A stretch of DNA of 64,000 bases from Nostoc sp. UHCC 0926 (GTDB lineage Bacteria; Cyanobacteriota; Cyanobacteriia; Cyanobacteriales; Nostocaceae): assembly GCF_028623165.1 (NCBI RefSeq), contig NZ_CP117768.1:1426001-1490000 (forward strand), given 5' to 3'. Both the position numbers and the translations under genes were made by a program. Positions 19,916 through 30,095 of this stretch are shown here, in pieces. The number at the start of each line of letters is the position of its first letter. The first letter of the stretch is position 1. The notes beneath the pieces are model-generated. The model saw nothing but the letters and a program-made list of their open reading frames with translations. It did not search any database and was not told the origin of the DNA.

Positions 19916-20130
19916 AAAAAATTTCTGGCTAACTCTTGCAGATCCTTTTACTTTAAGCGTAGTCCGAGATTTTCCGTTCTCTCCTAAAGAAGACCTTAAG
20001 AGTTGAATAAACGACAAAAATCCACAACTAACACGGATAATTAATTTTAAATTGTATCTAAATCAACAATTAACTTGCAAAATTTGCAAAATTGAAATAG
20101 TCAAAGGACGTAGTAAGGAGTAACCAAATA

Positions 20131-20868
20131 ATGCTGGCATATGTCCTAGCTTTAGTGGTCGGTCTTGGTAGTTTAGCCATTTATATAGCAGCTTTCTTTT
20201 TCCCAGAAATCCACCGCAAGAATGACTTTATCTGGAGTGGTGTAGGACTATTCTATGCCTTAGTCTTATGGGTGTTTGCACCACGCATTACTGGGGGTTT
20301 GTTGCTGGGTCATGTGGCTAGTGTGGCTCTTTTGGTCTGGTTTGGCTGGCAAACTCTATCATTACGTCGGCAACTGACTCCGCAGGCACAACAAACCCAA
20401 GTACCCAGTCCTGAGACGGTGAAAACTGGCATTCAGGAACAGGTGAATAAGTTGTCCCTTCAGGAACGGCTGGGCCAGTTGCAAAAAGGTCTTGGTAGCA
20501 CCTTCAGTGGCGCGAAAGATAAGGTGCAACAGACTGTGAGTAAAAAGCCATCCACAACCCCCAGACCTGAAGATATTACCTCTGTACTGGCAGAGAAACC
20601 TGCTGTTGAGATTATCAACAAAACTACTTCTATACCAGAACAACCAGCAGAGAAGACAGTTACTACTGACACCGAAGCAAAAACCAAGAGTATACCAGAA
20701 GCGATTCCACCACATCCCCCATCTCCTGAATTGGTGGAAGCAGCGCAAGCAAATGTTGAAATTGAGGAAAAACAACCGATTCCCGTAGAAGATATTGCGC
20801 CAGATGCGGTACTCGCTCCCCCGGCAGAAACACCACCGGAAGCAATACCACCGAATCAAGTTAGTTGA
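20131..20868 (+). CDS. Ycf66-family membrane protein
   Basis: This 245-residue protein has three N-terminal membrane helices (about residues 3-25, 33-50 and 55-75) carrying the Ycf66-like sequence LAYVLALVVGLGSLAIY. A long Pro-, Glu- and Thr-rich cytosolic tail follows. Ycf66 is conserved in cyanobacteria and some plastids; its function is unknown. The ribosome-binding site is AAGGAG about 10 bases before ATG. A hairpin follows directly after the stop. Confidence 0.85.
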   Translation: MLAYVLALVVGLGSLAIYIAAFFFPEIHRKNDFIWSGVGLFYALVLWVFAPRITGGLLLGHVASVALLVWFGWQTLSLRRQLTPQAQQTQVPSPETVKTGIQEQVNKLSLQERLGQLQKGLGSTFSGAKDKVQQTVSKKPSTTPRPEDITSVLAEKPAVEIINKTTSIPEQPAEKTVTTDTEAKTKSIPEAIPPHPPSPELVEAAQANVEIEEKQPIPVEDIAPDAVLAPPAETPPEAIPPNQVS

Positions 20869-20873
20869 ATGCA

Positions 20874-20913
20874 GTGAAACCCAACGTTAACCTAATATAA
20901 TGTTGGGTTTCAC
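20874..20913. terminator. bidirectional terminator hairpin
   Basis: gtgaaacccaacgtt and aatgttgggtttcac form a 15-base stem (one G-T) around a 10-base loop. It lies 5 bases after the ycf66-like stop and just past the 3' end of the convergent small gene, so it can serve both. Confidence 0.65.
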
Positions 20914-20921
20914 TATTTCCA

Positions 20922-21200
20922 TCAGACTATTTTAGGGCTGATTTCAAATGCTAATTCAGAACGATACAAGCACACATCAAACGCTAAAAAGAAATTCATG
21001 TGTCCTAAAATCAATGGGGCGTTTCTATCTCTAGCAGTTTCAAAAGAATCATATAAGCCTTGACTAGCTATTTTATTCTGAGCATCCAATGGGACTAAAC
21101 TTGATTCCTTCAACAATTCGGCTGCCAGAAAATGTATTAGTAAGAGTTTATCAGTGTAGGATAATTCTTTAAGCAGTGGTATGAGTTCGGTAACAAGCAT
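20922..21200 (-). CDS. small hypothetical protein (antitoxin-like N-terminus)
   Basis: This 92-residue protein starts MLVTELIPLLKELSYTDKLL and continues LIHFLAAELLKE, a helix pattern common to many small cyanobacterial proteins encoded near toxin-antitoxin genes. The C-terminal half (YRSELAFEISPKI) has a decayed nucleotide copy at 26563-26608, on the other side of the DGR block. Function unknown. It lies 80 bases from, and divergent to, the ParD-like gene. Confidence 0.5.
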   Translation of the reverse strand: MLVTELIPLLKELSYTDKLLLIHFLAAELLKESSLVPLDAQNKIASQGLYDSFETARDRNAPLILGHMNFFLAFDVCLYRSELAFEISPKIV

Positions 21201-21279
21201 AAATTAAGGCTTTAATGAATTTAGATAAATTTTAGAGCATAGTTTGGGGAACGCTTTTAACTAATTAGGGATAAAAATT

Positions 21280-21546
21280 ATGAACATCCAACTTAAAGCG
21301 GAATACGAGCAATTTATACAAACCCGAATTGCTACAGGTAGATATGAAAATGCTGAAGATGTGATTGCTAAAGCATTGAAACTGCTGGAAGAATGGGAGA
21401 AGGGTTATCAGGAATGGGAAGAAGAAATCCAGAAAAAAATAGCTGTTGGGCTTGCTTCTATCGAACGGGGAGACGTAGTAGATGGTGAAGTTGTGATGGC
21501 GCGACTGTCAGAGAAATTACGCAAAGCGCGTGAGACTCAAGGATAA
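21280..21546 (+). CDS. ParD/CopG-type antitoxin
   Basis: This 88-residue protein begins MNIQLKAEYEQFIQTRIATG and continues RYENAEDVIAKALKLLEEWE, matching the ribbon-helix-helix antitoxin pattern of the ParD family: beta strand, helix ending in a G(R/K)Y turn, then a second helix starting A.(D/E)VI. The charged C-terminal half would bind the toxin. Its last base is the first base of the toxin ATG. It is expected to neutralise the ParE partner and repress its own promoter. The toxin is frameshifted, so the antitoxin may be an orphan. Confidence 0.8.
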   Translation: MNIQLKAEYEQFIQTRIATGRYENAEDVIAKALKLLEEWEKGYQEWEEEIQKKIAVGLASIERGDVVDGEVVMARLSEKLRKARETQG

Positions 21547-21847
21547 TGGAATATTTTATTGCCAAAGAAGCAAGCCAAGATTTAGATGAAATTTTGGATT
21601 ATTTTCTAGTTCGCAATATTAACGCAGGGGAAAGATTTATTCAAGGATTTAATAAGAAGTGCCAAAACATAGCTCAATTCCCGAATATAGGACGAAGTTA
21701 CGCCAAGTTTGATCCAAGCCTTAGAGGAATACCTTAGATAGCTACATTATTTTTTATCAAGTTTTTGAAGATAGTGTTGTGATTGTGCGAGTAGTTAGCG
21801 GTTATAGGGATTTAAAATCTATATTTGCAGATGTGGACGATGAGTAG
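21546..21847 (+). pseudogene. ParE-type toxin, frameshifted
   Basis: The first frame gives 63 residues (ASQDLDEILDYFLVRNINAG, then FPNIGRSYAKFDPSLRGIP) and stops at 21737. Reading from about 21733 in the next frame continues the family C-terminus LDSYIIFYQVF and VVIVRVVSGYRDLKSIF up to TAG at 21845-21847. One missing T at about 21733-21735 explains it, because the codon series would otherwise be PLDSYIIFY. An intact protein would be about 100 residues, the usual ParE/RelE size. It is either a disabled toxin or a sequencing error in a T-rich spot. Confidence 0.75.
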
Positions 21848-22276
21848 ATTTTTGATAAAAATTACCTTATCGATTTTATGCAGTGTTCGCAGTCCCATCA
21901 CAATATATAAAATCATACAGCGATCGCAATATTAGAAAAAGCCTCGCCTTTCATGAGCGATCGCAATACCATAATCCCCCACTTCAGATATTTTAGTCCT
22001 GTAGAGTGCGTTACGACGTAAAATTAGCGTCGGGTGAAGTCTTTGCTGTAGGCATCGCTCCCCGGATATTTACTAACGGGACTTACACAAAAATTGCCAA
22101 AAAGCTTAATTTATCGAACCGCAAAGACGCCTTCTCTACGAGAGGCTTTGCCAACGCGCAGCGTCTCGTAGAGAAGAACGCCAAGAATCGTAGAGTATGC
22201 GTAAGTCCTAACTAAATTAGCCAGAATTACCGATACAATCATTAAAAAAGACCCTAAAAATACTTAAGCGATTCAC
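21848..22276. repeat. intergenic region with dispersed repeats
   Basis: This 429-base gap holds two HIP1-type sites (about 21920 and 21956) and a dispersed palindromic repeat at about 22130-22176 (cttctctacgagaggctttg, then cgcagcgtctcgtagagaag). The promoter of the EACC1-caspase operon must lie in its 3' part. A 69-codon frame here is made of repeat sequence and I reject it. Confidence 0.5.
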
Positions 22277-22669
22277 ATGGCAGCGATATCTAACGTTCAG
22301 GTGACGATTTCTCTAGCTGAACTGGGTTTAGACGATGAGGAGTTGCAAACAGAAGTAGAAAATTTATTACCTCAGTTAAAAGAAGTGGATGGGGTAGAAG
22401 ATGCAGATTTAGTTGCAGTGGAAAACGCACCCAAGGGGACAAAGAGTATCAGCGGCTTTGTGTGGGGATTGTTAAAAGCACAAGTTAACGCTTCTAATAT
22501 CAAGAGTTTGTTTAAATTTCTAAGCGATCGCTTCGGCAACAAACCAATTAAAATTGGGGTTAAAGCCCCCGATGGCAGAGAACTCAACATCGAAGCTAGC
22601 AGTCGAGAAGAGTTTGAATTTGCTCTACAGAAAGCACAGGATTTTTTGAACAATAAGTCAAACAGCTAA
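22277..22669 (+). CDS. EACC1-like effector-associated small protein
   Basis: This 130-residue soluble protein has an N-terminal strand-helix (VQVTISLAELGLDDEELQTE), an acidic middle, and a C-terminal segment IKIGVKAPDGRELNIEASSR followed by a helix with LQKAQDFL. From memory this fits the effector-associated constant component 1 (EACC1) family: a small conserved partner encoded beside variable effectors such as caspases or trypsins in predicted conflict systems. Its TAA is followed immediately by the ATG of the caspase gene, so the two are co-translated. The exact biochemical role is unknown; a signal-coupling or regulatory role is inferred. Confidence 0.65.
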   Translation: MAAISNVQVTISLAELGLDDEELQTEVENLLPQLKEVDGVEDADLVAVENAPKGTKSISGFVWGLLKAQVNASNIKSLFKFLSDRFGNKPIKIGVKAPDGRELNIEASSREEFEFALQKAQDFLNNKSNS

Positions 22670-24664
22670 ATGGCAAAAGTCGCACTGCTGATAGGGATTA
22701 GTGAATATGAGCCAGGGTTAGCACCGCTACCAAATGCTGTTAAAGATGTTGAGGCGATGCGGCGAGTTTTGGTAAACTCAGAAATGGGTGATTTTGCCGA
22801 AGCGGATGTCACTATGCTGAAAAATCCCCAACGGCAGGATATGGAAGATGCTATTTATAAGTTGTATGCCAATTGTCAGAAAGATGATTTAGTGCTTTTC
22901 TATTTTTCTGGTCATGGCGTGACAGTCGAAAGTGGTGATTTTTACTTCTCGACTTCCATCACCCGAAAAAATCAGGGAAAATTAATCCCCACTTCAGCCG
23001 TAGCAGCCACAAATGTACATAGTTGGATGAACCAGAGCAAGTCCAAGCGACTGGTAGTGATTTTAGATTGCTGCTTTAGTGGTGCTTTTGCCAAGGGTTT
23101 GACAGCTAAAGATAGTGGTACTATTGACCTGCAACAATATTTAGGGGGCGAGGGAAGGGCAATTCTCACTGCTTCCACTTCCACACAATATGCTTTTGAA
23201 TCCGATGGTTTGGAGCTTTCGATTTACACTCACTATCTGGTAGAAGGGATTGAGAAAGGTGCAGCGGATATAGACGGGGATGGCTTGATTGCGGTAGATG
23301 AATTGCATAGGTATGCGAAAAGCAAAGTGCAAGAAGCATCTCCGGCTATGACACCAGAATTTTATCCTTTTAAGGATGGTTATCGGATTTTTCTGGCAAA
23401 GTCGCCCAAGGATGACCCCAGCCTGAAATATCGTAAGGAAGTAGAACGGCTGAATCGGTCTGGTAAGTTTACTGTTCCAGCCCGTCGCCTGTTAAACTCA
23501 TTGCGCCTAACCTTCAAGCTTGCTTCTGATGTTGCTGATGCCATTGAAGCTGAAGTTCAACAACCATATCGAGAGTATCAGAGAAAATTAGAAGAGTACG
23601 AGTTAACCCTGGTTGAGACAATTGAAAGTGAGCCAACCCTAAGTGAAACAACTTTCAATGACCTGAAAGACTATCAGCAACATTTAAGTTTGAGAGATGA
23701 AGATGTAGCTTCAATAGAAGCGCGGATTATTGGTCAACCAAAACCAACTCCATTACCCGAATCCATTCAACAAATTGATTGGCTTGATTATCAAGCCAAT
23801 CAATTTGAGTTTGATATTGTGACGGTGAATGTTCAGGGACAACCCATCAACCGCAGTCGTGGACGCGCCGAGTTTTTTACAGAAAACTTGGGTAATGGCG
23901 TAGTTCTGGAAATGGTTGCAATTACCGGTGGTAAATTTCTCATGGGTTCCCTAGAGAGTGAGCCAGAACGCTATAACTCTGAAAGTCCACAACACCCCGT
24001 CACCATTCAACCCTTTTTCATGGGGAAATTTCCAGTAACCCAGAGTCAATGGGCATCTGTTGCCGCCTTGCCCAAGGTTAATATTGATTTAAATCCTGAC
24101 CCATCCAATTTTAAAGGTGTTAATCGACCTGTTGAACAAGTTTCTTGGGATGATGCAATTGAGTTTTGCGCTCGACTATCTAAAAAGACTGAGAAAACCT
24201 ATCGCTTACCCAGTGAAGCAGAATGGGAATATGCTTGTCGGGCGGGAACGACTACGCCGTTTTATTTTGGCGAAACGATTACAACGGATTTAGCGAATTA
24301 TCGGGGGACAGACTGGGATTATAACGGAACAGTATACCCAGGTAATTATGCTCAGGGGCCAAAGGGTGAATATCGTGAGCAAACAACAGATGTGGGGAAA
24401 TTTCCTGCAAACCCCTTTGGTTTATTTGATATGCATGGTAATATATGGGAATGGTGTCAGGATGAGTGGCACGAAAATTATAACGGAGCGCCAAAAGACG
24501 GAAGCGCTTGGTTAATTGATAATGATAATCAGATGCTGCTGCGTGGTGGTTCGTGGTCCTACATTCCCAGGGATTGCCGCTCGGCGACTCGCCACTATAA
24601 CGCGCGTGACTCCGGGAACAACAACGTGGGTTTTCGGGTTGTGGTGGTTCGGGGCAGGACTTAG
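22670..24664 (+). CDS. caspase-FGE fusion, DGR variable protein
   Basis: The 664-residue protein has three parts. Residues 1-240 form a caspase/metacaspase (C14) domain with catalytic His in FYFSGHG (about 83) and Cys in VILDCCFSGAF (about 133). Residues 245-370 form a helical linker (RKEVERLNRSGKFTVPARRL and SLRDEDVASIEARI) like those between effector and FGE domains in cyanobacteria. Residues 405-664 form a formylglycine-generating-enzyme/sulfatase-modifying-type domain with a C-type-lectin-like fold (GGKFLMGSLESEPERY, FPVTQSQW, YRLPSEAEWEYACRAGTT, NIWEWCQDEW). The last 40 residues lie within the variable repeat (24535-24657). Known DGR targets use this fold to display variable residues, so the protein probably senses a ligand and activates proteolysis. 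Confidence 0.9.
   Translation: MAKVALLIGISEYEPGLAPLPNAVKDVEAMRRVLVNSEMGDFAEADVTMLKNPQRQDMEDAIYKLYANCQKDDLVLFYFSGHGVTVESGDFYFSTSITRKNQGKLIPTSAVAATNVHSWMNQSKSKRLVVILDCCFSGAFAKGLTAKDSGTIDLQQYLGGEGRAILTASTSTQYAFESDGLELSIYTHYLVEGIEKGAADIDGDGLIAVDELHRYAKSKVQEASPAMTPEFYPFKDGYRIFLAKSPKDDPSLKYRKEVERLNRSGKFTVPARRLLNSLRLTFKLASDVADAIEAEVQQPYREYQRKLEEYELTLVETIESEPTLSETTFNDLKDYQQHLSLRDEDVASIEARIIGQPKPTPLPESIQQIDWLDYQANQFEFDIVTVNVQGQPINRSRGRAEFFTENLGNGVVLEMVAITGGKFLMGSLESEPERYNSESPQHPVTIQPFFMGKFPVTQSQWASVAALPKVNIDLNPDPSNFKGVNRPVEQVSWDDAIEFCARLSKKTEKTYRLPSEAEWEYACRAGTTTPFYFGETITTDLANYRGTDWDYNGTVYPGNYAQGPKGEYREQTTDVGKFPANPFGLFDMHGNIWEWCQDEWHENYNGAPKDGSAWLIDNDNQMLLRGGSWSYIPRDCRSATRHYNARDSGNNNVGFRVVVVRGRT
24535..24657 (+). 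repeat. DGR variable repeat (VR)
   Basis: This 123-base segment is the 3' end of the caspase-FGE gene and matches the template repeat at 26284-26406. By hand alignment (offset 1749) I count ten differences, every one where the template has A: A to T, C or G at 24557, 24558, 24560, 24564, 24572, 24588, 24594, 24611, 24612 and 24615 (positions approximate to a base). None of the roughly 96 non-adenine positions differ. The nearly adenine-free 3' segment (gtgggttttcgggttgtggt onward) is the likely initiation-of-mutagenic-homing site. Confidence 0.95.
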
Positions 24665-24726
24665 TAGCCCTTTACACTTTTACCCTTTAGCACTTTGCTC
24701 TTTATTTCTTTACCCTTCTTAATGTC

Positions 24727-24757
24727 TCGCGCTCGGCGCGCTCAATTTTTTTTAATT
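24727..24757 (+). terminator. possible hairpin after VR gene
   Basis: cgcgctcggcgcg followed by tcaattttttttaatttt forms a short GC stem with a T-run, between the VR gene and the avd-like gene. It may be an attenuating terminator, or the structured element often found downstream of a DGR VR. The stem is short, so support is modest. Confidence 0.4.
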
Positions 24758-24765
24758 TTGTATGG

Positions 24766-25122
24766 ATGAGTGATTTACCAATAATACAAAAAACTTACGA
24801 TTTAATCAAGTGGTATGTGCCAATTTTAAATCGGCTTCCTAGAGATCATAAGTTTTTGCTAGGAAATCGGATCATTACAGAACTATACAATTTATTAGAT
24901 GTTCTGATGGTAGCACGGTATGCTAAACAGAAATTAGCTCATTTAGAATTATTGAATAGTAAGCTAGATATTTTACGCTATCAAACTCGCCTACTTTTAG
25001 AATTTAACTTAATTAAGACAGAGCGTTATGAATATGCTCAAAAACTTTTAAATGATATTGGCATCGATTTGGGTGGATGGATAAAACAACAAAAAATCAA
25101 GACAAATATACCTGGCGATTAG
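24766..25122 (+). CDS. avd: Avd-like DGR accessory protein (four-helix bundle)
   Basis: This 118-residue, all-helical, basic protein contains IIQKTYDLIKWYVPILNRLP, RDHKFLLGNRI and NLLDVLMVARYAKQK, matching the Avd/four-helix-bundle family (bAvd) encoded beside DGR reverse transcriptases. Avd forms a pentameric basic barrel that binds the RT and template RNA and is needed for mutagenic retrohoming. It lies between the variable gene and the RT gene, with the RT start about 40 bases downstream. Length fits the family. Confidence 0.9.
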   Translation: MSDLPIIQKTYDLIKWYVPILNRLPRDHKFLLGNRIITELYNLLDVLMVARYAKQKLAHLELLNSKLDILRYQTRLLLEFNLIKTERYEYAQKLLNDIGIDLGGWIKQQKIKTNIPGD

Positions 25123-25164
25123 AAATTGCAGCTACACTGCCAAGAGCAGACGCGGGTTGAATTG

Positions 25165-26262
25165 ATGAAAAAATACGGAAATCTCTGGAATGAAATTATA
25201 GCATTTGAGAATTTACTATCAGCCACCCAGCAAGCACAACGGGGTAAACGTTTCCGAGAAAATGTTTTAGAGTTTAACTACAATCTAGAGCAAGAGTTAT
25301 TTCAACTGCAAGAAGAATTACAGTCAAAAACATACTGTCCTGGAAACTACACCACATTTCAAATTTTTGAACCCAAACCGCGAATGATTTCAGCGGCTCC
25401 CTATCGTGACAGAGTTGTGCATCATGCTCTCTGTAACGTCATTGTCCCCATATTTGAACGGACATTTATCAGTGATTCCTACGCCAATCGTGTTGGTTTT
25501 GGCTCCCATCGCGCTTTACGTCGCTTTACTAAATTTGCCCGTTCAAGCCGTTATGTTCTGCAAGCTGATATTCGGAAATATTTTCCTAGTATTGACCATG
25601 AGATTTTGAAATCACTGATATATCGTAAAATCAAATGTCCTGATACACTCTGGCTAATTAATACCATTATTGATAGTAGCAATTATCAAGAGCCAGTACT
25701 TAATTATTTTCCTGGAGATGATTTACTAACACCTCTCGAAAGAAGGCATGGTTTACCCATTGGCAATCTAACCAGCCAATTTTTTGCTAATGTATATCTA
25801 AACAATTTTGACCATTTTGTTAAAGAACAAATCAAAGCATCTGAATATATTCGTTATGTAGACGATTTTGCCTTATTTTCAGATAACAAAGTGTTTTTGG
25901 AAAACGCCAGAGTCAAAATAGAGAAATACCTTGCTGGGTTAAGAGTTAAAATTCATCCCATAAAAAGCCAATTATTTGAAACAAAACACGGAGCTAATTT
26001 TGTCGGATTTCGCATCTTGCCAGACCGGATTCGGGTACGCAGTAACAATCTGCGTTTGGCAAGAAAAAGATTACGGCAAATGCTCTGGGACTATCATCAA
26101 GGAAAAGTTGAATATGAAAAGATGTACCAATCAATGCAGAGTTGGATTGCCCACTTAAAGCATGGTAATACATGGCAGCTGCGCCAGCAAATATTTATTA
26201 CTTGGCAATTAGAAGATGTTATTGGTCAATTCTCTAATTTCGAGTCTATCGTGTTAATCTGA
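25165..26262 (+). CDS. DGR reverse transcriptase
   Basis: I start at ATG 25165 ([18 protein letters not shown]), the usual N-terminus of cyanobacterial DGR RTs; a TTG at 25126 would add 13 residues. Motifs in the 365-residue protein: [20 protein letters not shown] (motif 1/2), [13 protein letters not shown] (motif 3/A), [20 protein letters not shown] (DGR-diagnostic motif 4/B), [13 protein letters not shown] (catalytic YVDD, motif 5/C) and GANFVGFRI (motif 7). The catalytic residues are intact. It copies the template RNA into cDNA with errors at adenines, which then replaces the VR. The template repeat follows 22 bases after its stop. Confidence 0.95.
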
Positions 26263-26283
26263 ACGATGGGGTAGGCTATTCCG

Positions 26284-26406
26284 GCTGCTGCGTGGTGGTT
26301 CGTGGAACAACAATCCCAGGAATTGCCGCTCGGCGAATCGCAACTATAACGCGCGTGACAACAGGAACAACAACGTGGGTTTTCGGGTTGTGGTGGTTCG
26401 GGGCAG
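26284..26406 (+). repeat. DGR template repeat (TR)
   Basis: This 123-base non-coding template lies just downstream of the RT gene. It has 27 adenines by my count, concentrated in AAC/AAT codons if read in the VR frame ([20 protein letters not shown], then RNNN). That is the usual DGR design, because AAY can mutate to 15 amino acids but not to a stop. Matching runs from gctgctgcgtgg to cggggcag; flanks diverge. Confidence 0.95.
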
Positions 26407-26562
26407 TACTCTTTTGTGTCAGAACTGGTGAATGGGAATTCATCGGGCGTACCAAAAAAGAGTCCAGGCCTAATCCAGTGAGGTTGATAACGACTTCCGA
26501 ATATCAAACCGAGTCGGATAGCTTGGTAGGCTGAAAGGTCGAACAGTTGTCCGATTCACCTA

Positions 26563-26608
26563 ATTTTAGGGCTAATTTAAAAAGCTAATTCAGAACAGTA
26601 GAAGCATT
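26563..26608. repeat. decayed copy of the 3' end of the small gene at 20922
   Basis: This segment (attttagggctaattt then gctaattcagaac) resembles 20929-20974 over about 46 bases. Read on the minus strand it gives YCSELAF, stop, ISPKI against YRSELAFEISPKI in the 92-residue protein. It is a vestige of a related gene on the far side of the DGR. Confidence 0.5.
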
Positions 26609-26724
26609 AATCTGAACCTTTGCAACAAGCGATGTCTGACGACAAACCGGATAGCAGCTACGCACTACCATTAGGCGTAAAAACCTTAATTTCTAGTACA
26701 GTAACCTCATCTGAAAGAGAAAAG

Positions 26725-27948
26725 TTATTCAACTCTGGCGCGGAGTGCAGGAGAGGGAAAGAGAGTTTCAAATCCAGCTTGTCGCTCGTTTAAGGATTCT
26801 ATAGCATCGTTCCAAAGACTTTCATAATAAAAGAAGGTTACGCCTAGACCGCGTTCTTGGGCAGCCCGCACCTGAGACATAATTTGCTGCATGGGAACTG
26901 GATTATTTCGTAACCCTGTCATAATGCCAATTCCAGTTGGAATTATTTGTTGCGCTTCTTGAATTTCTGCGCGGGAAATATTTGCCACAAAACTTTGCAG
27001 ATTTGGACGATAAACTTGCACAATTAACTCGTCCACAATATTTTGCCGCATCCAACTCAGCCAATCTTGCAGGTGAAACTTGTAAGCCAAATCATAGTAA
27101 TTGGGAGCAACAGAGAAAATCGCCTGGGGTTTTCTCTGCTTCACTGCTTGGTTAAGTTGTACCATGAACGCCGTAATTTTATCTGCCCGCCACTGTACCC
27201 ATGCCGCATCTTGGGCATCGGTTGGGGGAGGATTATTAGTTTCTTGGGTGTACAAGGCAACTGTATATTGATCGTAGCCAAATTCGGAGGGCAAACTCAT
27301 ATGATCGTCAAACTGAATGCCATCGGCATCATATTGGGTAATAGTTTCCAGCACGAGATTGGTGATGAACTGTCGCACTTGTGGATGGAAGGGATTGAGC
27401 CACATCACCTCACCAGCTGCACTGATGGAAATTTGGCTACCATCCCGCTTTTGTGTGAACCAATCAGGATAATTCAGTGCCAGTTCTGAGGTTGGGGGAG
27501 CCATGAAACCAAATTCAAACCAGGGAATTACTAGCAATCCTTTGTGATGGGCTTGGGTAATCAGGTCTGCCAGAATATCATGTCCATCTGAACCTTTGTT
27601 GACAAAAGGTTGAATACCTGCATGTTGTGCTAGGGCACTGGGATACATCACATAGCCAGAATTCCACACCACAGGATAGATTGTGTTGAGGTTCATCTGT
27701 TGTAGTTCACTCACCGCATCCTGCACTTTGGCGCGACTCTTGAGGGTGTCAAAATCATTGGTGGTCATCCAAACCCCGCGAATTTCCTGACGGGGTAGCT
27801 GTGCGATCGCAGGGGTAAAGTTGTCTACCAGCAATACCGTAACAAAGGATATTAAAATGAGAATCGGAAAAAGATACTTGAGCAATGTCTGACGACAAGC
27901 TGCTGTGCATCTACGCCGCCAACTTTGAACAAGAAAAGGTGATTTCAT
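26725..27948 (-). CDS. GHL10-type (DUF187) glycosyl-hydrolase-like protein
   Basis: This 407-residue protein has an N-terminal membrane anchor or signal (about residues 22-46, YLFPILILISFVTVLLV). The rest is a TIM-barrel of the glycosyl-hydrolase-like 10 family: EIRGVWMTTNDFDTL, VVWNSGYVMYPS, GLLVIPWFEFGFMAPP, WLNPFHPQVRQF and YDADGIQFDDHMSLP, with a conserved acidic pair at the active-site end. It is predicted to act in the periplasm on peptidoglycan or polysaccharide; the substrate is not established. It is a single gene with no visible operon partner. Confidence 0.85.
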   Translation of the reverse strand: MKSPFLVQSWRRRCTAACRQTLLKYLFPILILISFVTVLLVDNFTPAIAQLPRQEIRGVWMTTNDFDTLKSRAKVQDAVSELQQMNLNTIYPVVWNSGYVMYPSALAQHAGIQPFVNKGSDGHDILADLITQAHHKGLLVIPWFEFGFMAPPTSELALNYPDWFTQKRDGSQISISAAGEVMWLNPFHPQVRQFITNLVLETITQYDADGIQFDDHMSLPSEFGYDQYTVALYTQETNNPPPTDAQDAAWVQWRADKITAFMVQLNQAVKQRKPQAIFSVAPNYYDLAYKFHLQDWLSWMRQNIVDELIVQVYRPNLQSFVANISRAEIQEAQQIIPTGIGIMTGLRNNPVPMQQIMSQVRAAQERGLGVTFFYYESLWNDAIESLNERQAGFETLFPSPALRARVE

Positions 27949-28386
27949 AAATTTGAATGATGCATTAGCTACCTACACACCCTATTGCTCGCTTTGATGA
28001 TTGAATCTACTAACCATTTATATAGTTTACAAGTATTTATGCTTACTACAAAATTGATGAGTTGGTAGTTGTTCATTCCCTGCTTATGGAACTTTTGCAC
28101 CAGAAAAACTAAAGCAGACCTAGCAAAGTTATAAGATGCTTGACGCAGTTAGTAGTGATTAGTGCCCAATGTCTATTGGGCATTGGGGATTGGTCATACT
28201 TCATCTTCCTGAACTCCCACCCCGCGCGAAGCTAAAGCTACATCTCCCTCAGCCTTTTTCTTCTCTACGGACGCTGCACGAACAATTTTGAATTTTGAAT
28301 GAGTGAATTTTGAATTGATTTCTCCCACGCCCTACCTGTGTCACAATAAAGAACTGTAATAAGAAAAATATTCTTAAGGTAATTTA
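27949..28386. other. 438-base intergenic region with chlI promoter
   Basis: The region lies between divergent genes. It has an imperfect inverted repeat (gcccaatgtctattgggc, about 28163-28180) and low-complexity repeat sequence, and no frame worth calling. It must hold the chlI promoter. Confidence 0.4.
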
Positions 28387-29511
28387 GTGAGTCCAACTGC
28401 TCAATCCACGGCAAGTGCGCGTCGCGTAGTATTTCCTTTTACGGCAATTGTGGGCCAGGAAGAAATGAAACTGGCGCTGCTATTGAACGTGATTGATCCC
28501 AAAATTGGTGGTGTAATGATCATGGGCGATCGCGGCACCGGTAAATCCACAACTATCCGGGCGCTGGCGGATCTGCTGCCAGAAATCTCCGTGGTTGCCA
28601 ATGACCCCTTCAGTAGTGATCCTAGCGACCCCGACTTGATGAGCGATGAAGTCCGCCAACTGTTAGAACAAGGGGGCCAAATTCCTGTAGCTCAGAAAAA
28701 AGTCCAAATGGTAGATCTGCCGCTAGGAGCTACAGAAGACCGAGTTTGCGGCACAATCGACATTGAGAAAGCTTTATCTGAAGGTGTCAAAGCCTTTGAA
28801 CCAGGACTGCTGGCAAAAGCTAACCGAGGCATTCTCTATGTAGATGAAGTCAACTTACTAGATGACCACCTCGTAGATGTGCTACTAGACTCCGCTGCCA
28901 GTGGATGGAACACTGTAGAACGGGAAGGTATTTCTATCCGTCACCCAGCACGTTTCGTTCTTGTGGGTTCTGGAAACCCTGAAGAAGGCGAACTGCGCCC
29001 TCAACTGCTTGATCGCTTTGGGATGCACGCAGAAATTCACACAGTAAAAGAACCAGTCTTGCGGGTGCAAATCGTGGAACAACGGGCGGATTTTGACCAA
29101 AATCCTCCAGTATTTCTCGAAAAGTACAAACCCGAACAAGAAGCATTGCAAGAGCAAATTGTCAATGCTCAACAGCTTTTGCCAGAGGTGAAAATTGACT
29201 ATGATCTGCGGGTAAAAATATCTGAAGTCTGCTCTGAACTGGATGTAGATGGTTTGCGGGGTGACATTGTTAGTAACCGCGCCGCCAAAGCCTTAACAGC
29301 ATATGAAGGACGCACTGAAGTTACAGTTGATGATATCCACCGCGTAATTACCCTATGCTTGCGTCACAGACTGCGGAAAGACCCCTTAGAATCGATTGAT
29401 TCTGGTTACAAAGTCGCCAAAGCTTTTAGCCGCGTCTTTGGCGTCGAACTACCAGAAAGTGATACTGCACAAAAAAACGGCACAGGTCAAAAGTTAGGGG
29501 CTAGGGGTTAG
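28387..29511 (+). CDS. chlI: magnesium chelatase subunit ChlI
   Basis: A 374-residue AAA+ ATPase with a GTG start. Walker A is [14 protein letters not shown] (about residue 47), Walker B is [14 protein letters not shown] (about 155), and [20 protein letters not shown] (about 195) carries the sensor and arginine-finger region. The C-terminal helical lid contains [20 protein letters not shown]. With ChlD and ChlH it drives ATP-dependent insertion of Mg2+ into protoporphyrin IX, the first committed step of chlorophyll synthesis. Length and start fit cyanobacterial and plastid ChlI. The last 15 residues are poorly conserved. Confidence 0.95.
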
Positions 29512-29798
29512 GAGGCAATTAATTTTGGATTTTGGATTTTGGATTTTGGATTTTGGTGAAGCAGCGCGTTCTTTTCCCAAAGGGAGAGGCTAGCGCCAAG
29601 GGGGTCTCCCCCATGAGCGACTGCTGTTAGCGCAGCGTTAGCGACGTTAGGAGCGTCACCCGTTCGCGCAGCGTCTCCCCTTGGGAGAAGGGATTGAAGG
29701 AAAAATCGAAAATTTAAAATCCAAAATTGGCAGAGTCTAACTCCTAAGTCAGCACGGGCTAAACCATAGCTATCCGCTAACAACATTCAACACTGACT
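29512..29798. repeat. intergenic short repeats
   Basis: About four tandem copies of the 8-base unit ggattttg lie at 29525-29556, followed by dispersed palindromes of the gcgcagcgtctccccttggga type at about 29667. No gene; a minus-strand 92-codon frame here consists of repeats. Confidence 0.5.
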
Positions 29799-30095
29799 AT
29801 GAGATTTTGGTCTTTTTGGTTCAATAGCTTCGTTCTATCTAGTCAATACAATCCGCCCAGGTTTGTAGAATTATTGATGCTCTTATTAGCGATCGCTATG
29901 CTGGCAATAGCCACTATTTTACCCGACAGACCCTATTTAATCTTAGGCTTGAGCCTAGTAGTTGGGGCATCTATTTCTATCTTAGTGCGGGAAGCGATCG
30001 CCCCCTCACCCCAGACGCGAATTACCCAACTAACAGCATCACTATTGCTTATCATCAGCCTCTATCAATTCGGGGAATTGTTTTACCAACAGTAA
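29799..30095 (+). CDS. small integral membrane hypothetical protein
   Basis: This 98-residue protein has three or four hydrophobic segments (about residues 22-40, 45-62 and 78-92) and a Trp/Phe-rich N-terminus (MRFWSFWFNSFVL). It contains one HIP1 site. No family recognised. It is probably an inner or thylakoid membrane protein. Confidence 0.5.
   Translation: MRFWSFWFNSFVLSSQYNPPRFVELLMLLLAIAMLAIATILPDRPYLILGLSLVVGASISILVREAIAPSPQTRITQLTASLLLIISLYQFGELFYQQ

Follow-up and report, generated by a model that had tools for sequence, protein, structure and literature searches.

The question that this locus of Nostoc sp. UHCC 0926 raises is whether two closely similar repeats lying on either side of a reverse transcriptase (RT) gene belong to a complete diversity-generating retroelement (DGR) and, if so, what that element diversifies and how. 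The window analyzed is a 64,000-nt stretch of this genome (GCF_028623165.1, NZ_CP117768.1:1,426,001-1,490,000, forward strand). A prior interpretation made from the DNA letters (the sequence-only reading) had proposed a complete DGR at 24535..26406, in which a variable repeat (VR) differs from its template repeat (TR) at ten positions, all of them template adenines. We conclude, with a probability of roughly 0.93, that the window element is a complete DGR of the cyanobacterial kind, operating by the mechanism proposed below.

The footprint itself is confirmed. In the ungapped alignment of the VR (24535..24657, + strand), which forms the 3' end of the target gene, with the TR (26284..26406, + strand), which starts 22 nt after the RT stop codon, 10 of the 123 positions are mismatched; these fall at 10 of the 27 TR adenines and at none of the 96 other positions (hypergeometric p = 5.6e-8), as had been counted by hand, and that probability rules out a chance repeat as the origin of the pair. 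Read in reverse, none of the 17 adenines of the upstream copy is mismatched, and the downstream copy is therefore the template. The computational realignment gave no non-adenine difference within the 123 nt, the next VR/TR mismatch being T/G at 24658, one base outside the VR, and a repeat search returned the same pair (127 nt) as the longest direct repeat within 20000-30000. Relative to the TR, the VR has four A to T, four A to C and two A to G changes, which alter eight residues and create no stop codon; a template adenine is present in 16 VR codons. A remote VR for this TR was not found in the same genome at E<=0.001, the only further match (74%, the third hit) being the TR of a second DGR described below.

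The Avd-like and RT genes that had been placed between the repeats were recovered by profile searches. The product of avd (24766..25122, + strand, 118 aa) matches NCBIfam NF033474 at 136.7 bits (cut-off 80), Pfam bAvd at 8.6e-20 and the solved structure 4dwl (Bbp7) at E 0.0069. The DGR RT gene is placed at 25165..26262 (+ strand), from an in-frame ATG at 25165 within an open reading frame (ORF) that opens with TTG at 25126 (25126-26262); it matches RVT_1 (2.2e-22) and phrog_1423 (1.1e-118), and its ORF contains the motifs reported earlier, [10 protein letters not shown] and YVDD. Among solved structures the RT is closest to 8ub7 (E 1.2e-47; its title says no more than "Reverse transcriptase"), which we take to be the DGR RT of Bordetella phage BPP-1; the closest group II intron RT reaches 3.9e-20. 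In a tree of 30 RTs, 28 DGR RTs are split from two intron-like RTs of the same genome with support of 100/100, and the window RT, which this split and the 8ub7 match place inside the DGR clade, groups with the RT of Nostoc foliaceum (94/82); BPP-1 and Prosthecochloris are on long branches and their own placement is unsure. Compared with five relatives, the nonsynonymous divergence (dN) of RT, avd and target is far below the synonymous divergence (dS; e.g., RT dN 0.074-0.087, dS 0.52-0.74), and every reading frame of the window copy is open. An RT of the DGR clade, an Avd and an adenine-only TR/VR pair, by which a DGR is recognized, are thus all present.

The target (22670..24664, + strand) is a variable protein of 664 aa with a caspase domain at aa 3-223 (Peptidase_C14 2.3e-24) and an FGE/C-type-lectin-type domain at aa 414-658 (FGE-sulfatase 3.5e-58), its relatives in PDB being PvdO, FGE and T. 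denticola variable protein 1 (2y3c, 3.2e-13). Judging from the FGE-sulfatase and 2y3c matches, the VR is predicted to sit in the C-type-lectin-type domain. Directly 5' of the target is a 130-aa gene (22277..22669, + strand) that is EACC1-like: its match to Pfam EACC1 (PF19953; E 0.017, 15.5 bits) is under the cut-off of 23.6, four of its seven homologues match EACC1 at E<=0.1, and it was found in seven of the nine loci whose target is caspase-type. The target itself scores 162.7 bits against NCBIfam caspase_w_EACC1 (NF047832, cut-off 140), by which the 3' gene qualifies as an EACC1-associated caspase. A MoxR-vWA ternary conflict system beside the DGR found no support in that part of the window ORFs that was scanned: Pfam search gave no vWA match in the target, and the AAA gene at 28387 matches magnesium chelatase, its bpMoxR match being weak and below the cut-off of that family.

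Evidence for the history of the element comes from Nostoc foliaceum FACHB-393, a genome in the window's genus, where a DGR locus (L050, on the same contig as L004) has flanking genes that correspond to those of the window on either side (Pgd and Ycf66; GHL10 and ChlI) and is therefore orthologous. The two TRs differ at six sites, and at the four sites without an adenine each VR has the base of its own TR (4/4); retrohoming therefore continued after the split, across which the RT dS is 0.264. The opposite pattern, VRs that stay identical while the TR drifts, which the sequence-only reading had named as grounds for giving up its proposal, was not seen, the L050 TR having drifted and the two VRs differing from each other at 14 shared template adenines and at no shared non-adenine site. 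Together with the adenine-only differences and the DGR-type RT, this comparison supports the earlier attribution to mutagenic retrohoming. The accompanying statement that the element has been active in this lineage is supported as a statement about its past. Over seven near loci, of which orthology has been shown for L050 only, the VR follows its own TR in both members at 58 of 62 non-adenine differences, a result that is partly built in because the pairs were chosen by a score penalizing non-adenine mismatches; the misses include edge columns outside the TR. The same score selected the candidate TR/VR pairs behind the target N-terminus and hairpin counts given below, whereas the window alignment, the L050 comparison and the 52-pair set do not use it.

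The orthologous locus also differs from the window in its effector. DNA similarity between the two is interrupted from 21972 to 23868, a point ahead of the FGE domain, and in this interval the window encodes the EACC1-like protein and the caspase where L050 encodes a TIR domain (TIR_2 4.5e-16); sensor, avd, RT and TR are common to both despite this difference. A TIR is also present in locus L061, which branches at the base of the clade, and the caspase/TIR exchange is read without direction. A perfect palindrome with 17-bp arms (23771-23807) lies within the linker of the target gene, near the point where the N. foliaceum similarity resumes.

In five further relatives (L051-L054 and L056) the part similar to the window extends from 22209-22277 to 26558-26578, and none of the six flanking proteins had a match there within the fetched stretches of about 10 kb. 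Since the limits are alike but the flanks unmatched, we read these loci as a module of about 4.36 kb at different sites, whose 3' limit is the end of a structured RNA that follows the TR. By this sequence comparison the cassette of about 4.36 kb runs from the EACC1-like gene to the end of that RNA. The earlier limits, 24535..26406, are accurate from VR to TR, the conserved cassette being wider (about 22210 to about 26570), and the earlier list of contents (VR, avd, RT and TR) holds but missed the RNA, the EACC1-like gene and the effector exchange. A ParD/ParE-like toxin-antitoxin pair (21280-21737) lies before the cassette and has no match in the orthologous N. foliaceum locus, and a 44-nt direct repeat (86%; 20929-20972 and 26563-26606) brackets the cassette and the ParDE genes, its right copy beginning at the RNA end.

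The predicted post-TR RNA (26403..26564, + strand) is about 160 nt long, has a fold energy that beats shuffles (z -3.46, 0/200 shuffles as good) and scores 168.1 bits against a covariation-backed model, R1. Its consensus fold (+ strand) has helices at 26408-26414/26457-26463, 26418-26419/26451-26452 and 26425-26433/26438-26446, and in the 3' part at 26478-26486/26491-26498 and 26511-26523/26545-26557, the latter with an inner helix at 26529-26531/26538-26540. In the alignment (A1) of 51 chosen sequences, from which L058 (with an insertion) and near-duplicates were left out and from which the structure was itself derived, the 42 pairs are formed in 97.6% of cells, versus 86.5% in shuffles and 31-48% in slid versions, and changes on both sides occur at 28 of the 42 pairs; the + strand is favored, the reverse complement pairing in 80.1%. 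The RNA is more alike than the RT gene in all six near loci (86.6-97.5% versus 83.5-91.9% identity), and past its end only matches of 10-16 nt remain in these loci. A coding role for this stretch was rejected, as lengths shift by single bases (144-154 nt) and stops occur in 45, 35 and 43 of the 51 sequences in frames 0, 1 and 2, respectively.

Among 386 genomes sampled from the phylum, 36 have a match to model R1; the window's own genome has two, one per DGR. In L012 and L068 the TR is upstream of avd-RT and the RNA is still directly 3' of the TR; in L121, on an Acaryochloris plasmid, TR and RNA are on the opposite strand and the RNA again lies 3' of the TR. A Chlorobiota plasmid with an RT 43% identical has an R1 match at its TR end (24.4 bits, E 8.6e-5), and its VRs differ from the TR at 8/23 and 11/17 adenines and at 0/58 and 1/56 other positions. 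No significant R1 match was obtained in two proteobacterial plasmids or in BPP-1 (the latter with filters off), and the BPP-1 spacer was accordingly rejected as a homologue recognizable by R1. Within 24000-27500 no Rfam family matched at E<=1, and within 24600-26800 neither sigma-70 promoters nor terminators exceeded shuffles (4 vs. 5.7 and 2 vs. 2.0). The Bordetella spacer RNA recruits RT-Avd and primes complementary DNA (cDNA; PMC12875486), and regions up- and downstream of the TR are predicted to lie within the complex (PMC12691664). By analogy, we infer that the post-TR RNA is the counterpart of this spacer RNA, with a role in priming cDNA. A 2025 abstract by Handa is said to expect the mechanism to be conserved in distant taxa, and such an RNA is therefore not new as an idea; its consensus structure was not met in the available parts of the DGR literature searched, nor in Rfam.

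Searches with R1 also found TR-RNA-VR units that have no avd or RT within the fetched 10-13 kb (e.g., L126, L133 and L137-L139). The TR is identical in L137, L138 and L139 (genomes G049, G048 and G167), and relative to it the VRs are changed at 14, 12 and 8 of 27 adenines and at 0/94 other positions. An intact RT with a different TR is present elsewhere in G048, no RT match was found in G049 at E<=1e-12, and the sole RT match in G167 is intron-like, so these cassettes are either served in trans or relics. The window's own genome has a second DGR (L020:8576-12204, on a 291,576-base contig with ParA/ParB genes), with an RT 70% identical, two FGE targets, its own TR and the same post-TR RNA, and either RT could in principle serve both RNAs. 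We tentatively propose, as a possibility that we rate somewhat below even odds, that the post-TR RNA is a portable mutagenesis tag: a matching RT-Avd would copy any tagged TR, RT-less cassettes would be mutated in trans, and the sensor-mutator module would swap EACC1-caspase and TIR effectors at a fixed chromosomal site. In L131, L134 and L135 the FGE target ORF leads straight into the RNA at its end, as though VR-TR recombination had removed avd-RT.

Close RTs (E<=1e-60) occur in 54 of the 217 genomes of the family that were searched, the window's own included. The FGE domain was identified by similarity in 68/68 target ORFs from 57 loci, whose N-termini are caspase (9), kinase (6), TIR (2), FGE-only (14, a class that includes at least two truncated ORFs, L059 and L072) or other (37). 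Over 52 TR/VR pairs from 45 loci, template adenines differ at 759/1596 and other positions at 73/4967, with 31 of the 52 pairs having no non-adenine difference; this set was obtained by blastn from 73 loci after removal of eight duplicates or partials, with high-scoring segment pairs of <80 nt dropped and 20 of the 65 remaining loci, several of them with the RNA, left out for want of an anchor match. A Blastocatellia bacterium metagenome-assembled genome (L011), a bin named for an acidobacterium, has a cyanobacterial-type DGR with an RT 69% identical and an R1 RNA, which may reflect transfer or misbinning. In L067 (G103, matching Nodularia spumigena CCY9414) an insert of ~280 nt (L067:2107-2387) interrupts the TR and has at least 40 identical copies in the genome, whereas R1 finds only four copies of the RNA there; 70 copies of a "DGR1 ncRNA element" were counted in PMC3610870, and the insert may be what was counted there.

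BPP-1 requires a hairpin just after its VR (PMC3240598), and a GC-rich 5-bp hairpin with a T-run lies 70 nt after the window VR (24728..24740, no strand assigned), one of five sites of this pattern on both strands of the 64 kb. It could be a target-site hairpin or a terminator, the latter being possible given the distance and the T-run. Of 67 VRs, 30 are followed by a GC-rich hairpin with a T-rich tail, against 0.2 expected from mononucleotide shuffles, and for 29 of these the distance is 54-70 nt. The 5-bp rule behind this count was picked after a first rule with a 6-bp stem had given 20/71 VRs and missed the window. The stems differ in sequence, and the other 37 of the 67 VRs have no hairpin by the same rule.

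The mechanism that we propose begins with transcription of the TR and the folded RNA behind it, in agreement with the TR RNA expression and low-level adenine mutation reported for N. punctiforme in culture (PMC12691664). RT and Avd would bind the post-TR RNA and prime cDNA into the 3' end of the TR, as in the Bordetella system, with the RT probably misincorporating at template adenines, as the footprint indicates. The cDNA would then replace the VR of the target gene, a step to which both the footprint and the VR following its own TR in two Nostoc species point. The residues varied would be those of the C-type-lectin-type domain of the caspase protein, eight of which differ now and 16 of which have codons with a template adenine. 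The caspase-FGE protein and its EACC1-like partner would probably take part in a conflict or cell-death response, with the varied domain as the sensor of a ligand or an invader, and the N-terminal effector of the module can differ while sensor and mutator stay.

Several observations weigh against parts of this interpretation. The avd of L050 is split between two frames and that copy may no longer work; its RT has 360 aa of uninterrupted reading frame and stops sooner than the window RT. The window hairpin is short, distant and missed by the first rule, and the EACC1 match of the 5' gene is sub-threshold. Counting pairs on the alignment that yielded the RNA structure favors that structure, and the equivalence with the BPP-1 spacer rests on position and fold because R1 has no match there. 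That absence of homology to the BPP-1 spacer speaks for a role other than cDNA priming, be it as an independent regulatory RNA, as a signal for processing or as a terminator of transcription. We nevertheless consider such a role for the post-TR RNA quite unlikely, since the RNA follows the TR, and not the VR or the RT, when the TR has moved or been inverted and also in the Chlorobiota plasmid, the search for terminator-like signals around it gave nothing above shuffles, and its conservation exceeds that of the RT gene DNA in 6/6 near loci.

The footprint alone does not show present activity, and the element could be a fossil whose VR was diversified in the past; decayed DGRs do occur in relatives, as RT fragments in G073, G113 and G003 and as the split avd of N. 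foliaceum. For the window this is unlikely, given its open frames, the purifying selection on RT, avd and target, and the 0/96 non-adenine VR/TR differences, from which the last homing was recent compared with the N. foliaceum divergence. Far less credible is a plain duplication shaped by gene conversion and selection on asparagine codons, with no reverse transcription: direct repeats can convert each other and many of the adenines are in AAY codons, but the differences run one way, from TR adenines, the other positions, first and second codon positions included, hardly differ in the 52-pair set, and RT and Avd are linked to the repeats and kept. A complete DGR acting by mutagenic retrohoming remains our preferred reading.

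The window element adds another cyanobacterial DGR to a known kind, and cyanobacterial DGRs with orthocaspase targets have been published (PMC7517822; PMC10907252). The available parts of those two papers give no consensus for the post-TR RNA, no cassette limits and no caspase/TIR exchange at an orthologous site. The RNA model finds TR copies where the RT is gone or elsewhere and marks the cassette end, and the same sensor and mutator joined to different death-type domains in two Nostoc species is a natural experiment on DGR targets as interchangeable sensors of conflict systems; together they make the priming of cellular DGRs, and what these sense, easier to test. Like the published cyanobacterial DGRs of RT clade 5/5E, from which it is no different in kind, the element has an RT of that clade, an Avd, adenine differences, a C-terminal FGE domain and an N-terminal signaling or peptidase domain such as orthocaspase. 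The DGR of Nostoc punctiforme PCC 73102 (PMC12691664) is of the same family, with two targets beside MoxR and vWA genes where the window has one caspase-type target and an EACC1-like gene. With the BPP-1 DGR the window element shares the VR-avd-TR-RT logic, an RNA of comparable length (in BPP-1 144 nt, located between TR and RT) and possibly a hairpin after the VR; it differs in that its TR follows the RT, R1 does not match BPP-1, and target and RT of the two are distant. The arrangement of a small 5' gene followed by an N-terminal caspase with a C-terminal domain of varying kind is that of the EACC1-caspase two-gene system (PMC7159879), from which the window differs in its sub-threshold EACC1 match and in that the C-terminal domain is an FGE domain diversified by a DGR.

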